From contig NZ_LT904902.1 of assembly GCF_900199725.1 (NCBI RefSeq), positions 983,964 to 1,047,963 on the forward strand: 64,000 bases of DNA. The letters run 5' to 3'. Position numbers and translations under genes: made by a program. Shown here one piece after another: positions 2,452 to 39,833 of this stretch (positions are counted from its first letter, which is position 1; every line of letters starts with the position of its first letter). This stretch comes from Cytobacillus massiliigabonensis (GTDB lineage Bacteria; Bacillota; Bacilli; Bacillales; Cytobacillaceae). The notes beneath the pieces are model-generated. The model was not told where the DNA came from. It did not search any database and saw only the letters and a list, made by a program, of their open reading frames with translations.

Positions 2452-3348
2452 TTAATTGCTGGGCAGTTGAATGCCGCGCCAGCTGCTTACATCACATTGA
2501 CCGTATTCATTATCACCCACAGCAACCACTGTGCCATCTGCTTTAAGACCGACTGTATGGGAACAACCAGCCGCGATCGCCACAATATTATGCCAATCCC
2601 TTACATTACATTGACCATACTTATTCCAGCCAACAGCCACCACCGTTCCATCCGCTTTAAGACCAATGGTATGATTACTGCCTGCAGCGATCGCCACAAT
2701 TCCGCGCCAGCCGCTTAGATCACATTGGTTATGTCTATTTGAACCCACACCCGTCACCGTTCCGTCCGATTGAAGACCCACAGTATGAAGATAACCTGCC
2801 GCAACTGCCACCATATCGCGCCAGCAGCTTACATTGCATTGGCGATACCGATTATTCCCCACAGCCATCACCGTGCCATCCACTTTAAGACCAATGGTAT
2901 GCCAGTCACCCGCTGCCACTGTCACCATATCGAACCAGCTGCTTACATTGCATTCACCTTCATTATTTCGGCCCACTGCTGCCACCGTCCCATCCGCTTT
3001 AAGACCAATGGTACTGCACCAACCCGAAGCCACCGCTACAATATCACGCCAGTCCTCTACATCGCATTGGCCATGCTTATTCCAACCAACAGCCGCTACC
3101 GTACGATCAGATCTAAGACCGATTGAATGAGCATTCCCTGTGTTCGGCGCCATATGAACATTACCCGCTACCACCGCCACCATATCGCGCCAGCCGCTTA
3201 CATCACATTGACCATATTTATTATCACCCACAGCCATCACATTGCCATCCACTTTAAGACCAATGGTATGACGCCGCCCCGCCGCTATGGGATCTTTAGG
3301 CCACCGTTTCACCTTTAATACCGCCTCTTTCGGTGAAATGTAATCCAT
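2452..3348 (-). CDS. RCC1-repeat (beta-propeller) protein
   Basis: A 298-residue protein made almost entirely of about six tandem repeats of roughly 40 residues. Each carries the signature HTIGLKADGTVVAVG followed by NKYGQCNV and then a W-R/H-D-I/M-VAVAAG segment, the pattern of RCC1/regulator-of-chromosome-condensation blades. Such proteins fold as beta-propellers and usually bind other proteins; the bacterial role is unknown. No signal peptide or membrane segment is seen. The start follows AAGGAGG. Six visible repeats is near a complete seven-blade propeller. DNA-level repetition produces long open frames on the opposite strand, which are shadows. Confidence 0.85.
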   Translation of the reverse strand: MDYISPKEAVLKVKRWPKDPIAAGRRHTIGLKVDGNVMAVGDNKYGQCDVSGWRDMVAVVAGNVHMAPNTGNAHSIGLRSDRTVAAVGWNKHGQCDVEDWRDIVAVASGWCSTIGLKADGTVAAVGRNNEGECNVSSWFDMVTVAAGDWHTIGLKVDGTVMAVGNNRYRQCNVSCWRDMVAVAAGYLHTVGLQSDGTVTGVGSNRHNQCDLSGWRGIVAIAAGSNHTIGLKADGTVVAVGWNKYGQCNVRDWHNIVAIAAGCSHTVGLKADGTVVAVGDNEYGQCDVSSWRGIQLPSN

Positions 3349-10055: not shown

Positions 10056-10505
10056 CTAACCAGCGGACTGTTTATTCTTCTTAGTTGTGCCCAGTATAAT
10101 CAAGGCAACATAGATTACAATGGCAATCGAATCTAAAAGCGTATCAGTAAGAGCCGAAACGTCAAGTATTGCGGTTACACCAAGAATGACCATCAGTCGG
10201 ACAACCAAGATCGTCACGATCATCCAAGCGGTAAAACGGACCTTCGATTGCTCACTTTGGAATGACATGAAAATGAATGCGATGCCGAAGACCAGGTTTT
10301 CTGCCGTTATAATGTGCCAAACATACGTCAATACCGTTCGGTTATCCATGGACATCGCCATAATATCGTTCGTTACCAGTACAACGTATTGTCCGTTCCA
10401 TGCATGAGTTACGGCAAACAGAATCGCAAGAACACCTACAATCAGATAATAAAAATTCCTAACCTTGATGTTGATCACAACCCTCCATAGAAATTCCTGG
10501 TTCAT
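10056..10505 (-). CDS. Four-helix integral membrane protein
   Basis: A 149-residue protein with four predicted transmembrane segments (about residues 18-36, 60-80, 93-113 and 122-142) and a basic C-terminus (TTKKNKQSAG). Family not recognised. The frame overlaps the 3' end of the upstream merR gene by 47 bases if the ATG at 10505 is used. A GTG at 10478 lies just after GGAGG but with poor spacing, so the true start is uncertain. The overlap implies co-transcription and translational coupling with the MerR regulator, making it the regulator's likely target. Confidence 0.65.
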   Translation of the reverse strand: MNQEFLWRVVINIKVRNFYYLIVGVLAILFAVTHAWNGQYVVLVTNDIMAMSMDNRTVLTYVWHIITAENLVFGIAFIFMSFQSEQSKVRFTAWMIVTILVVRLMVILGVTAILDVSALTDTLLDSIAIVIYVALIILGTTKKNKQSAG

Positions 10506-10932
10506 TCTCGTGGATATCCTTGTAAAGCTCGCGGACGAATTCTGCCAACCGTTGATCGCTTTCGCTATTAAAATCTCTTAACGTTTCAGATGCTATGTTG
10601 AGCAACCGACTGACCTTTTCCAGATGATTGATCTTCTTGCGCGTTTCTGCGTTTTTAGCATCGAGGAACGCTGCAACCTCTTCGCAGTAAGAGGAATCGA
10701 TATTTTCCATCTTACGGAAACCAAATTTCCCTTTGATTTCATTAAGAGAAAAGTCCGCATACTGCATAATCTGAATATTCATCAAGTCTATGAGGTCGTC
10801 TCTCGAATACATCCGGTACCGATTGTCTTTCCGAGACGGCGAGACGATCCCAATCCGGTCATAATATCGAAGTTTATCCTTAGACATCCCAAGTATCTGC
10901 GAAACCTCTTGTATAGAATAAAGTTTTTCCAT
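10459..10932 (-). CDS. MerR family transcriptional regulator
   Basis: A 157-residue MerR-type activator. The N-terminal winged helix (YSIQEVSQILGMSKDKLRYYD, then the wing with YRMYSRDDL) is intact, followed by the long dimerisation helix and a C-terminal region without an obvious metal-binding cysteine pair, so a drug or other small-molecule signal is more likely than a metal. There is no ribosome binding site before the ATG. The promoter -10 ends 7 bases upstream, so the message is probably leaderless. It is followed by an overlapping membrane-protein gene. Confidence 0.85.
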   Translation of the reverse strand: MEKLYSIQEVSQILGMSKDKLRYYDRIGIVSPSRKDNRYRMYSRDDLIDLMNIQIMQYADFSLNEIKGKFGFRKMENIDSSYCEEVAAFLDAKNAETRKKINHLEKVSRLLNIASETLRDFNSESDQRLAEFVRELYKDIHENEPGISMEGCDQHQG

Positions 10933-10938
10933 GAATCC

Positions 10939-10969
10939 AGAATAACATTTGAGTTGACTCCAATGTCAA
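10939..10969 (-). promoter_or_regulatory. MerR-type promoter with 19-bp spacer and dyad
   Basis: Reading the minus strand: -35 TTGACA (10964-10969), 19-bp spacer, -10 TATTCT (10939-10944). The spacer region contains the near-perfect 20-bp dyad CATTGGAGT-CA-ACTCAAATG. Overlong spacer with a central dyad is the classical MerR operator architecture, so this is autoregulation. The -10 lies about 7 bases from the start codon. Confidence 0.8.
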
Positions 10970-11072
10970 GTGGTTTTTTTAAAATTTTCACCATATTCAG
11001 AATATCACTATTGGAGATATTTTAAATGTATTCCTAATTATCAATATTAATCTTTAATATTTTATTCCGTAT

Positions 11073-11132
11073 TTTGGCCCTTTTCATGAAGAAAGACGCT
11101 TTCTATTTCAGAAAAGCGCCCGTTTGTTGAAG
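11073..11132. repeat. Short dispersed hairpin element, CATGAAG type
   Basis: GGCCCTTTTCATGAAGAAAGACGC followed by a CAGAAAAGCGCCC arm and GTTGAA: an imperfect inverted repeat (AGACGCTTTCT / AGAAAAGCGCC) with constant flanks. Other copies in the same orientation lie at 15163, 16140, 17526, 18392, 46036 and 47695. Confidence 0.65.
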
Positions 11133-11176
11133 ATCGTTATTGAACTAAAGCCCCCTTTAGTTGAATCTAATTCTTT

Positions 11177-35778: not shown

Positions 35779-35973
35779 GTATTACCAAACCTCTTATTTC
35801 AGAAAAGCACCGTTTGTTGAAATCAAGTATTGCCATAGTTGGATTACTATATTTAATTTGTAATACGGTTCACCGAGACGCAACTAAATGGGATTTTCTT
35901 GAATATAAAGAATGCACCCTTTTTTGTTTACAATACAAATATTAAAAACTGTACACTTCCAATTAAATATAAA

Positions 35974-36257
35974 ACCTATCATTAATTAACTAAACAGGGA
36001 AAGTAAAATAAGCGGAAAATATCCGGTTGTTTCCTAAATGAAGCACGTTTTGGGATAAATAAGGGGAGTTTTTCCGCTTATTCAAAGCAAAATCCCCCAT
36101 TTTCACGGTTTTTCGAGTAAATAAGGGTAATTTCTCCGTCTATTATGGATTTTTTCAATACTTTTTACGAAATAAGCGGAATTTTTCCGTCTATTTCATC
36201 AGATTGTATGCTTAACCTGATCCCCCAACCTTAAGGATAGTCATTTGACTAAAAAAC
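35974..36257. repeat. 280-bp four-palindrome element, copy B
   Basis: Same element as 26481-26760 and 51834-52117. The palindromes start at 36007, 36058, 36120 and 36171 (51, 62 and 51 bp apart). It lies in about 640 bp without genes between the Rrf2 gene and the convergent nuclease operon. A short CATGAAG-type 3' fragment (TTATTTCAGAAAAGC, 35795-35822) lies just to the left. Confidence 0.85.
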
Positions 36258-36370
36258 CTCATTTACCTACGATAAGGTTCACCGCAGTGTATCCATATGA
36301 GGTTTTTTGTAGAAATGAAACTAGTTAAGATTTTAGTACTGAACAGTCCCTTCTATTTACACCCATTGTA

Positions 36371-37693
36371 TTAATAACACAACTCAAACTTTTTAAGTTC
36401 TTCTATTGTTTTATCCATATCTATCAAACCATTTTCCTGAGTACGGATATAGTTTGTTTTCTGGGCTACGGTCATCGTTTTCCCAGTACCTAATCTTGAT
36501 GGTTTTTGTAACAGAAGTCCGTGTTTTTCCGATTCCGATAGAACCGATTTCATCTCTTCATTTCGGAACTTCCTTAAATCTTGGATATCTTCTGCTTCGA
36601 TTTTTACACACAGTACTTGCTGCTCAAGCTGTAGGTAATAATTTTTTTTGCTTTGTGGCTTCCACCAAAAACCCCAAAATCCTCCCCTAGGATTAGAAAC
36701 GTAACCCCAGTTGCCATCAAAATGCATTTGAAGCTCCTTGTAAAAGCCCTGCCAAGCAAAACCATCCCAGTCTATGATAGGTTTTATTTTATAACTATTG
36801 ATTTTACTTTCTAGTTTCTCCAAATAAGCAAGATAGTCGAGAAAAATCGGATGGTTGACACCATTTTTCCTACCCCTCTGTAAAATCTTTAGCATTCTAT
36901 CACGTGTAAACGGAAAATACTTCGCTTCGACTACAGAACGATAATGGCTTTGGTCTGCTATTTTATAATAAATCGGAAGTTGAATCTTATCAGGATGAGC
37001 CATTTCTACAGCTTCGCGATACCGTTCTAGCTGATTAGAGTGGTTTTTAGTAAAGGTTTTGTCCTCAATTAAAACGGCATATGTATCATTGATAATTGCA
37101 AGAATATCCAACCCTTGAAATTGCCTAGTAATCTCCATTTTTTCAATTGTCGGCACTGGAATGCCATGAACATTGAACATCATCGACACAAAGTCAACTG
37201 AAGCGTCATGCAAACTCTTGTCAAATGAGCGGTGTGTTTCCTGACTCCATGACATTAGCCAGCATAAGAAAGCATCCTGTGATAATTCACTCGTTGCAAA
37301 TTCGAATATATTTGGTGTCTCCATATAAGCCGCCTCGCTATCTCGAACATTTTCAAGGAGTAATTCTACATCATGATTACCAATATAGTCGTCCCAATAG
37401 CCTCTTGCAAGAATGGATTGGTAATGAAATTCTGGATAAATCAAATTTGTTTCCACATCAAGAATCCGTCCCCGTTCATTAGGATACAAAAGCAATAAAC
37501 GTTCATCTCCTTGTTGAGCAATAATCTCTGGTACCGATTCCCACCGCTTCATGTATCCACATTCATGATCCTGACACTCATAAACTTGATGTGCATCCAT
37601 AATAATACTGCCATCTCTCATTTCATGTACCATTTCCCAATCTTTCTCTCGTAATTTAGTGCCACATCGTGGACATAAATACTTTGTATTCAT
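36371..37693 (-). CDS. Zinc-ribbon PD-(D/E)XK nuclease-family protein
   Basis: A 440-residue protein. The N-terminus holds a zinc ribbon (Cys7, Cys10, Cys40, Cys45; LCPRCGTKL ... YECQDHECGY). The central part matches the PD-(D/E)XK nuclease superfamily: TSELSQDAFLCWLMSW with Glu136, GLDILAIINDTYAVLIEDK with Asp196 and Glu210-x-Lys212, then QLERYREAV, all catalytic residues being present. The C-terminal 150 residues (WQGFYKELQMHFDGNWGYVS) are unassigned. It is the third gene of a tight operon (gaps 14 and 26 bp). A nuclease behind a possible DNA-modification reader suggests restriction-like defense; this is inference. Confidence 0.75.
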   Translation of the reverse strand: MNTKYLCPRCGTKLREKDWEMVHEMRDGSIIMDAHQVYECQDHECGYMKRWESVPEIIAQQGDERLLLLYPNERGRILDVETNLIYPEFHYQSILARGYWDDYIGNHDVELLLENVRDSEAAYMETPNIFEFATSELSQDAFLCWLMSWSQETHRSFDKSLHDASVDFVSMMFNVHGIPVPTIEKMEITRQFQGLDILAIINDTYAVLIEDKTFTKNHSNQLERYREAVEMAHPDKIQLPIYYKIADQSHYRSVVEAKYFPFTRDRMLKILQRGRKNGVNHPIFLDYLAYLEKLESKINSYKIKPIIDWDGFAWQGFYKELQMHFDGNWGYVSNPRGGFWGFWWKPQSKKNYYLQLEQQVLCVKIEAEDIQDLRKFRNEEMKSVLSESEKHGLLLQKPSRLGTGKTMTVAQKTNYIRTQENGLIDMDKTIEELKKFELCY

Positions 37694-37719
37694 TCATCTA
37701 TCACCTACAATTTTTTAGT

Positions 37720-38079
37720 TTACGGATTCACTCTAAAATAAGTTAAACTTTTTATGTCCTTACCGTTTAGTTGAAATCTTCCACAAGCCCAAGCATCAGG
37801 TCTTTCCATAAAAACTTTATATACTATTAGTCCGAAGAATAGTGCAGCCTGAGTTTGATTTCTTCCACAAGCATGATAAATAGGTTCAAAAACTGTTCCC
37901 CTCCAATTAGACCCAGGCATCCACCCAGCTGTATGAATTTCGTCGCAATCAATCATTCGATTCAATTCATCTTTAATTTGATTATAATCAGTGTCTATAA
38001 GGTTTTTCCTCCAGTTTTTGTAATCCTTGCTAAAGGGAATAGTTTTCTTTTCCTTCCCCGTATCAATAGAAACTATCAT
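37720..38079 (-). CDS. Unknown small protein of the nuclease operon
   Basis: A 119-residue protein, not assigned. Conserved-looking core EIHTAGWMPGSNWRGTVFEP and IYHACGRNQTQAALFFGLIV, then PDAWACGRFQLNGKDIKSLT. Soluble, with no signal peptide or membrane segment. Start ATG follows GAGGAGAG. It sits between the reader-like gene (14-bp gap) and the nuclease gene (26-bp gap), so all three are translated from one message. It may be an adaptor or inhibitor; nothing in the sequence decides. Confidence 0.65.
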   Translation of the reverse strand: MIVSIDTGKEKKTIPFSKDYKNWRKNLIDTDYNQIKDELNRMIDCDEIHTAGWMPGSNWRGTVFEPIYHACGRNQTQAALFFGLIVYKVFMERPDAWACGRFQLNGKDIKSLTYFRVNP

Positions 38080-38093
38080 AACTCACTCTCTCC

Positions 38094-38729
38094 TCATCCT
38101 AATAATTTTGAAACCTTTAAAATGCTCTTGGCTGCATCTACCCTTACTTCCTCATTTTCAGATTCAAGTGCAGATAATAAGACTTGTAGTGCTTTCTTTG
38201 CCTGTTCTTCACTAACTAATGTCTCATCAAATGCAAAAGTTTGTTGTTTATCACTTAAGTCTGTTTCAGTGCTTAGGACTTTATCTAATTCAGCAATATC
38301 AAATGGATGTTTAAACTTAGTAACAATGCTCCTATTACGAAGCAGTTCCTTGACGAACTCATTCAATTGATGCCTTTGTACTTTTTTAAGCCATGTTACA
38401 TCCCGTCTATGGCACATACCCTCATCTTCAAATTTATCATCGTAATAATATGGTCCTATCTCTCCAATATGCACCCATTCTCCTTCAGTGATTAGAACGA
38501 TATCTTTATCATTCATTGTGTTGGTAAAGGCATTTACTATTCCCAAATGATTCCCCAATTTACTTCCTGTCCATTTGTATTTTTCATGGAGCCTTTTTCT
38601 TATTTCGTCTTTTTCAACTCCCTCAAGATTTCCAATTCCTGGGTAACCAATACAAGCAAAGCCCTGTGAAATAAATTCAGTAATTCGCTCAATTCCATTT
38701 GGCTGGGTTTTCATTTGAAAGATGTTCAT
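38094..38729 (-). CDS. PUA/EVE-like putative DNA-sensing protein
   Basis: A 211-residue protein, first gene of the operon. Residues about 5-116 (ACIGYPGIGNLEGVEKDEIR, NHLGIVNAFTNTMNDKDIVL, EWVHIGEIGPYYYD, CHRRDVTWLKK) resemble the sensor module found in front of Mrr-like and other modification-dependent nucleases, related to PUA/EVE folds that read modified bases. The C-terminal part (130-211) is helical with SEEQAKKALQVLLSALESEN. Start ATG follows GGGAGGAAT. Function as modified-DNA reader is inference from family resemblance by eye. Confidence 0.6.
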   Translation of the reverse strand: MNIFQMKTQPNGIERITEFISQGFACIGYPGIGNLEGVEKDEIRKRLHEKYKWTGSKLGNHLGIVNAFTNTMNDKDIVLITEGEWVHIGEIGPYYYDDKFEDEGMCHRRDVTWLKKVQRHQLNEFVKELLRNRSIVTKFKHPFDIAELDKVLSTETDLSDKQQTFAFDETLVSEEQAKKALQVLLSALESENEEVRVDAAKSILKVSKLLG

Positions 38730-38744
38730 TTTATTCCTCCCAAT

Positions 38745-38853
38745 CCGTTACAAACCGTAACAAATTATAACAATTTATAATTTGATTATAAATCATTTTC
38801 TGAAAATGTCAAACCGTAAATATCCGTAACAGTCCATAACGAATTACCAAGGG
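38745..38853. repeat. 10-bp-phased repeats around the promoter
   Basis: Ten-base units in register: CCGTTACAAA at 38745, CCGTAACAAA at 38755, TTATAACAAT at 38765 and TTATAATTTG at 38775 downstream of the -10. Then CCGTAAATAT at 38814, CCGTAACAGT at 38824 and CCATAACGAA at 38834 upstream of the -35. The two groups are 59 bp apart and so remain in helical phase. Presumably binding sites for a cooperative regulator of the operon. Confidence 0.7.
38785..38812 (-). promoter_or_regulatory. Consensus promoter of the nuclease operon
   Basis: Minus strand: TTGACA (38807-38812), 16-bp spacer, TATAAT (38785-38790). Both hexamers are perfect matches to the sigma-A consensus. The transcription start would lie about 40 bases upstream of the first ATG. 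Confidence 0.85.
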
Positions 38854-38877
38854 GATAATTAAAATTGTTTTAAAACA

Positions 38878-38932
38878 AAAAAGAGCATTCTCACAAGTCG
38901 AATTTTTGACTAAGAGTTGCTCCTTTTCTTAA
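38878..38932. terminator. Imperfect hairpin, possible terminator
   Basis: AAAAAGAGCA ... AAGTC-GAATTTTT-GACT ... TGCTCCTTTT, an interrupted hairpin with A and T runs at the ends. No gene ends directly at it. Confidence 0.4.
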
Positions 38933-38937
38933 AAACA

Positions 38938-39833
38938 TAGATATATCATGATTTTTGTTTTTACATTTTGAAAGAATTTACCCTTTTGGGACAGACACTT
39001 AACCTTCATTTCTACATGTTCAAAGCAAGCTTAATACTGGAAATTCAATAAAAAAACCGCACCTATTTATGATAAAGTTCCCCACTATTAATGGTAAATT
39101 TAACATCCTCAACAATCAGGACCGAAAAACCAGGCAAAATTAAAGAGCCCTTCTCGTTCGAGAGGGGCTTAGTTATTCCATTAAGCATTAATTATCTCAA
39201 TCTGTATTGATTTCACCAGTAATTTGTATCCTTCTATATTTCCAAACATTGATATTAATTGTTGGGATAATTCTATCTGAAACAACGAAACTTTCGTTTG
39301 GTTTACTAAATAAAATCCTTCCTAGTAGATCAATCCATTTTAATGAGCATGTCAATCTCGATTCTAGATTAAGGAGAAATACTCAGTGTGTCGAAAAAGC
39401 TTATACATTTGCATAGAATGCAAGAAAATAGAAAGATCAGCCAGCAATGCTAATTCTCAAGAATAGGAAATGTTTGTAAGTTTCGTATAACATTGTTTCT
39501 GCCTGCACCTATAGTTAATATCTCAATACTGCACCATTATTAGCATTAATATTCATATTCGTCCTCTATTAAATGACTTAAAAATAAGAGCTGCTGCGGA
39601 GGTTGCTAGGAAAAATATTTAAAACCAAAAGGAAAGAACAAAATAGTTGAAGAAAGTGAAGAAACAGAGGATGATAGGACATAACAGCTTATTCTCAATG
39701 ATTACAATAAGCTCATACAGTCACTTGCTAAAAAGTATAAAGCACTGCTTATATATCAGCAGGTAACCAACTATGTATATGTTTTTCTTTAATTGCTGGT
39801 TAGCTAACTAATAAATAGAAAGAAGGATCTCCT
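38938..39833. other. Gene-poor region with decayed sequence
   Basis: About 900 bp without a supportable gene. It contains a partial tail of the four-palindrome element (about 39056-39120: TTCCCCACTATTAATGGTAA), a strong hairpin at 39143-39170 (AAGAGCCCTTCTC / GAGAGGGGCTT), and short protein-like stretches interrupted by stops between about 39390 and 39780 (for instance YICIECKKIERSASNANSQE and LILNDYNKLIQSLAKKYK). These are probably remnants of lost genes. One uninterrupted plus-strand frame at 39207-39416 has no ribosome binding site. Confidence 0.4.

Follow-up and report, generated by a model that had tools for sequence, protein, structure and literature searches.

In the PDC-S02 proteins of PADLOC, an N-terminal reader and an Mrr_cat domain are carried on one chain, and in McrBC the sensor/GTPase and the PD-(D/E)XK nuclease are split into two genes. 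Stand-alone EVE proteins are lone readers; according to Bell et al. (2020; PMC7641849), they occur with type I systems, and EVE itself is found joined to PD-(D/E)XK, HNH, PLD, GIY-YIG and McrB. The PDC families are unvalidated products of a guilt-by-embedding screen, and no mention of PF14281/PDDEXK_4 or PDC-S26, the nuclease core of interest here, was found in the literature searched. The present study concerns three adjoining genes, named pua, mid and nuc, in a 64,000-nucleotide stretch of Cytobacillus massiliigabonensis DNA (contig NZ_LT904902.1, positions 983,964 to 1,047,963; hereafter, the window). Our preferred reading, offered tentatively and at a little short of even chances, is that they form a split, partner-swapping, modification-dependent restriction cassette serving phage defence, in which pua+mid is the best-supported core and nuc a likely but unproven effector. 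On this reading it would be a form of a known kind of anti-phage restriction system. The features of the cassette are listed below (L and G numbers in the text are our labels for loci and genomes).

35793..39107, no strand: cassette of ~3.3 kb carrying pua, mid and nuc, delimited by comparison with the relative G014
36251..36308, minus strand: terminator-like hairpin after nuc, from folding
36371..37693, minus strand: nuc, open reading frame of 440 aa, with a zinc ribbon (residues ~1-53), a small module (~54-120), a PDDEXK_4 match (128-257) and a C-terminal region
37720..38079, minus strand: mid, open reading frame of 119 aa, with a conserved W-, P- and G-rich core and no accepted family
38094..38729, minus strand: pua, open reading frame of 211 aa, with an Mrr_cat/McrB-type sensor domain (residues 1 to ~150), a flexible stretch (159-170) and two C-terminal helices (HEAT-like, weak)
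38752..38829, minus strand: three TTACGGNTW sites flanking the pua promoter, from a motif count
38785..38812, minus strand: sigma-A type promoter TTGACA-16-TATAAT, from a motif match

An original prediction, made from the DNA letters and their open reading frames, had described three tightly spaced minus-strand genes behind a perfect sigma-A promoter, and this description was confirmed. The gaps are 14 bp between pua and mid and 26 bp between mid and nuc, and at 38812-38785 the promoter hexamers match the consensus at 12/12 bases with a 16-bp spacer. Promoter-like sites of any quality were about as numerous in the region (12) as in shuffles (11.3), which leaves the perfect match as the one notable point. 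The stretch 36235-36380, which includes the hairpin past nuc, folds with a z of -2.87, and the three genes have the look of one transcription unit. The TTACGGNTW motif occurs nine times in the window against 2.95 expected; three of these copies surround the pua promoter, for which they may serve as putative operators. In L014, L112, L011 and L113, too, inspection by eye suggests short repeats near the promoter ahead of pua, though their sequence differs.

The same prediction had likened the first gene to the sensor modules of modification-dependent restriction enzymes, and the profile comparisons bear this out. The pua protein matches PDC-S02 over residues 12-191 (E 9.4e-15), and its residues 1-140 align with the N-terminal domain of a set of PDC-S02 Mrr_cat proteins (hhalign 99.88%, E 2e-32); in the full-length PDC-S02 proteins of L002 (329 aa) and L136 (on an archaeal plasmid, beside brxL), Mrr_cat stands behind this pua-like domain. 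The pua profile also matches two proteins in which the pua-like domain precedes AAA_5, namely L229 (residues 196-349) and L230 (residues 388-488). The latter is an McrB with EVE at 16-144 and AAA_5 at 575-729; its GTPase part matches solved E. coli McrB chains (E 2e-101), and the next gene looks McrC-like by eye. Because of this homology to both the Mrr_cat N-terminal domain and an McrB domain, pua resembles a type IV sensor, and it looks like such a sensor without its nuclease. The one-chain layout of PDC-S02 is not found, since pua has the reader half followed by the flexible stretch and the two helices, and neither Mrr_cat nor another nuclease domain was detected in it with Pfam and PADLOC. 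In Pfam, only weak matches below the cut-off were obtained, HEAT-like in the tail. The difference from McrBC is that pua, mid and nuc have no AAA_5 GTPase match in Pfam and that no McrC was seen.

The AlphaFold2 model of pua is confident (mean pLDDT 89.3, pTM 0.70, with ten-residue blocks staying above 90 as far as residue 150) and has predicted strands at 3-6, 24-26, 77-82, 85-96, 107-118 and 136-138, helices at 40-51, 55-71, 174-187 and 193-210, and a low-confidence stretch at 159-170. Judged by the succession of its strands and helices, the model would be consistent with PUA-like folds. In sequence searches of PDB neither mid nor nuc nor the sensor domain had a usable match; for pua the top matches were designed alpha-repeat proteins, aligned to its C-terminal helices. 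The pua profile did not match the EVE-HNH proteins of L218 and L220, and the N-terminal parts of the Mrr_cat proteins in L052 and L080 and neighbouring proteins in L108 and L121 were rejected as pua-type readers, the profile giving no match to them either.

The pua domain occurs in 81/397 genomes of the order, and as a stand-alone copy in 26/397 by open-frame length, according to a hand count of frames of at most ~275 aa with at least ~130 model positions (G869, with internal stops, was included and a degenerate G813 copy left out). Type I restriction genes lie near pua in three loci, as N6_Mtase three genes off (L214), HsdR two genes off (L215) and HsdR adjoining (L219). EVE-HNH lies near a stand-alone pua in L218 and, by appearance, in L220; other neighbours are SAVED with Prok-JAB (L224), an OLD-type AAA ATPase (L083) and mREase_II (L011, L134). 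Phage contigs add GIY-YIG (L130, and by appearance L132). This company is much the same as that which Bell et al. (2020; PMC7641849) describe for EVE proteins. In L225, the gene that follows pua was rejected as a GIY-YIG nuclease, having no Pfam match up to E 0.001. In L081 the gene next to pua is a shorter relative of it, and two tandem, diverged copies of pua were observed in one genome (L082, 7001-8102).

The middle gene had been left unassigned, and it stays so: none of the models in Pfam, NCBIfam, PADLOC or PHROGs gave an accepted match to mid, and comparison of the two proteins rejected it as a relative of pua. It is rare and scattered, being present in 4/201 relatives and 2/398 genomes of the phylum (the window's own counted in each), in 7/397 genomes of the order (two of the seven truncated or degenerate), in five plasmid records (three queries) and in 12 IMG/VR contigs. 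A 139-aa neighbour in L122 was rejected as a diverged mid (blastp E 0.47). In three places an unassigned protein of 174-181 aa precedes mid, namely L108 (76-621) and L109 (829-1374), both phage contigs, and L010 (7384-7908), a Roseomonas plasmid; the two of these scanned had no Pfam or PADLOC match, and relationship to pua was rejected (hhalign 0.1%). DUF1413 proteins precede mid in L002 (5561-5971, Schwartzia) and in the phage contig L124 (4642-5001). In L105, mid is preceded by a relative of the DUF1413 gene of L124.

The pairing of pua with mid is recurrent. In non-phage loci with an intact mid (L117 being counted, L003/L115 and L116 not), pua adjoins mid in 8/14, on the same strand in the window, L011, L013, L014, L112 and L113 and head to head in L012 and L015. 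The six without an adjoining pua are L001, L002, L009, L010, L114 and L117; L002 makes a ninth locus, with a pua-like domain inside the Mrr_cat enzyme three genes upstream of mid. In the order sample, four of the seven mid genomes have a stand-alone pua, adjoining in all four, compared to 26/397 overall (P 4.5e-4, kinship not corrected). The pua label is clustered on the mid tree, where it needs three changes, at least two of them forced by strong branches; on the pua tree, the mid label needs seven changes, at least four of them forced in this way. Closely similar mids in L013 and L014 stand beside puas of different subfamilies. Together with the trees, this suggests that the pairing has been re-formed, which may reflect either a functional link or a shared mobile niche. 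Left out of the mid tree were L003/L115 (a single record whose mid is interrupted close to the end of the contig), the degenerate L116, the near copies L107 and L123 and the very distant L117; L089, L133, L090 and L095 were left out of the pua tree, in which Mrr_cat rows were cut to their first 165 residues.

The Exiguobacterium plasmid L011 carries a second pua-mid-nuclease set, its nuclease being mREase_II (E 2.4e-54), and this makes a chance arrangement in the window less likely. On another Exiguobacterium plasmid (L134) mREase_II follows pua. The enzyme belongs to a family other than that of nuc, as indicated by its Pfam DUF6998 match.

The identification of nuc as a PF14281-type PD-(D/E)XK nuclease with a zinc ribbon was upheld by profile search, the score of 32.9 bits being above the gathering cut-off of 22.3. 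Glu136, Asp196, Glu210 and Lys212, the last two in the predicted Glu210-x-Lys212 arrangement, are identical in 10/10 full-length members, window included, and the ribbon cysteines are Cys7, 10, 40 and 45, near the last pair of which the relative L077 has an alignment gap. The nuclease core is common to nuc and PDC-S26, but the best PDC-S26 match covers only residues 121-273, and nuc has the ribbon and the small module in front. Full-length relatives occur in 10/201 genomes, again with the window included, at 55-60% identity.

Parts of nuc were also seen in other orders. In L051/L080, a nuc-type ribbon and small module form one gene before an Mrr_cat gene; in L052, a ribbon gene precedes a module-Mrr_cat protein; in L053, the ribbon is fused to a PDDEXK_4-like core without the small module; and in L056, a ribbon gene lies beside a protein that ends in the small module and looks PD-(D/E)XK-like by eye. 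Since ribbon and module recur in this way, nuc may carry its own targeting parts.

Comparison with the close relative G014 delimited the cassette, as this genome has ~80 bp in place of window positions 35793-39107, and searches of the 201 relatives gave no match to pua, mid or nuc in it. The long flanking pieces share 92-95.5% DNA identity and two short ones 84%. Since ~80 bp stand against 3.3 kb with all three genes, pua, mid and nuc came or went together. Either gain by the window or loss by G014 may account for this, the stretches fetched for seven other relatives covering one cassette flank only, and no terminal repeats or target duplication were seen at the cassette ends.

Under the preferred reading, the cassette would move between genomes and work like a split type IV system. 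The pua protein would be the sensor subunit that picks out foreign DNA, probably by binding a modified base in it, and would be the sensor half of an Mrr/McrB-type enzyme without the nuclease; mid, as its frequent small partner, would probably be an adaptor or a regulator; and nuc, or a different nuclease in another copy, would be an exchangeable downstream effector acting through pua, with contact among the three proteins, DNA cleavage and a defence effect all predicted. If this is true, modified phage DNA can be sensed and cut by the products of separate, exchangeable genes, the sensor having a small unassigned protein as its recurrent partner, mid gains a testable place in phage defence, and the stand-alone relatives of the PDC-S02 sensor become a group worth testing.

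The type IV layout proposed in the original prediction stood in part. Sensor homology, the presence in the unit of a PDDEXK_4 nuclease whose catalytic residues are intact, and the restriction genes near some pua relatives speak for it. At the same time, the reader-nuclease layout is not conserved across genomes: nuc adjoins pua or mid in 1/10 full-length nuc loci and in 1/8 pua-mid pairs, and for 9/9 of the other full-length nuc relatives the fetched 14 kb contains neither a pua nor a mid match. Two genomes have the genes on different contigs: in G034 contig 37 carries nuc and contig 10 the pua-mid pair, and in G008 nuc lies on contig 3, pua on contig 29. A conserved operon of pua, mid and nuc was thus rejected, the three-gene linkage being found only in the window. 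The refuting pattern named in the original prediction, scattered homologues that are never linked, is seen for nuc but not for pua+mid.

Further observations weigh, like this scattering of nuc, against a split restriction cassette. Inspection by eye, together with a scan of one neighbour, showed no nuclease immediately after the six pua-mid pairs other than the window and L011, many pua loci are without an obvious defence neighbour (by eye), and in 0/16 newly fetched stand-alone pua loci was mid or nuc found within three open frames. EVE membership of pua, suggested for a profile check, was not shown by sequence; there was no Pfam EVE match up to E 1, and comparison with three EVE domains was not significant (hhalign 2.3%), so that pua differs from the stand-alone EVE proteins in this as well as in its pairing with mid. 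The mid label on the pua tree is unclustered (297/500 shuffles as low), which fits re-pairing but chance shuffling too, and the mid and pua trees do not distinguish gains from losses. The pairing could also be explained by a shared mobile niche, as the phage slot that contains mid in some contigs contains pua in others.

Among the alternatives, the one that survives best is that two independent elements share the cassette, pua+mid acting without nuc and nuc being a self-sufficient nuclease targeted by its own ribbon and module, with co-transcription a mere convenience of insertion; it is to be taken seriously, although we place it clearly below even chances. The solitary nuc relatives, the 7/8 pairs without nuc and the recurrence of ribbon and module beside Mrr_cat enzymes and another PDDEXK_4-like protein all favour it. 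So does Terrilactibacillus L003, where what is left of a truncated mid shares 97% identity with the window mid over 60 residues, yet the protein after it has a DUF4209 match and is not nuc. However, the single promoter, the short gaps and the joint absence in G014 oppose it, as does the nuclease directly downstream of the pair in L011. Moreover, some pua match is present in 4/10 nuc genomes among the 201 relatives (P 0.012, kinship not corrected, one match being a 728-aa protein).

A wider role for mid is unlikely, though it deserves mention: as a hub adaptor of ~119 residues, mid would define an undescribed split restriction-like class by docking exchangeable sensors and, in some copies, exchangeable nucleases. 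The sensors would be pua of several subfamilies and perhaps the 174-181 aa protein and DUF1413 proteins, and phages, which also carry mid between terminase-like and portal-like genes, may use it to exclude competing phages. The same variety of small proteins ahead of mid can be read differently, with pua+mid as a toxin-antitoxin-like or autoregulated module, mid as a promiscuous partner and nuc as incidental. The TTACGG sites flanking the pua promoter and the head-to-head pairs agree with such a module, but the kinship of pua to restriction sensors does not, nor does the fact that stand-alone pua is common and mostly without mid, mid also occurring without pua; this account appears distinctly improbable.

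Least probable of all, and by our estimate very much so, is that pua and mid are phage cargo with a superinfection-exclusion or packaging-related role, captured by the chromosome and having no link to modified DNA: pua is present in four IMG/VR contigs besides the 12 with mid, and a slot between terminase-like and portal-like genes (by eye) holds mid in 5/12 contigs (L105, L106, L107, L123, L124) and pua in 3/3 examined (L130, L131, L132), but tblastn with the window mid found 0/50,697 phage records (pua was not searched there), and pua has its sensor homology and is frequent in bacterial genomes. No pua was found near mid in any of the 12 phage contigs that carry mid.

Note that the site of the cassette is itself variable, as G014 has, next to the cassette position, an extra stretch of ~6.5 kb that is absent from the window. 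This stretch contains a gene with RCC1-like repeats (by eye; L179, reverse complement 10270-11166) that resembles the gene at window positions 2452-3348, and from this resemblance the region looks prone to rearrangement.

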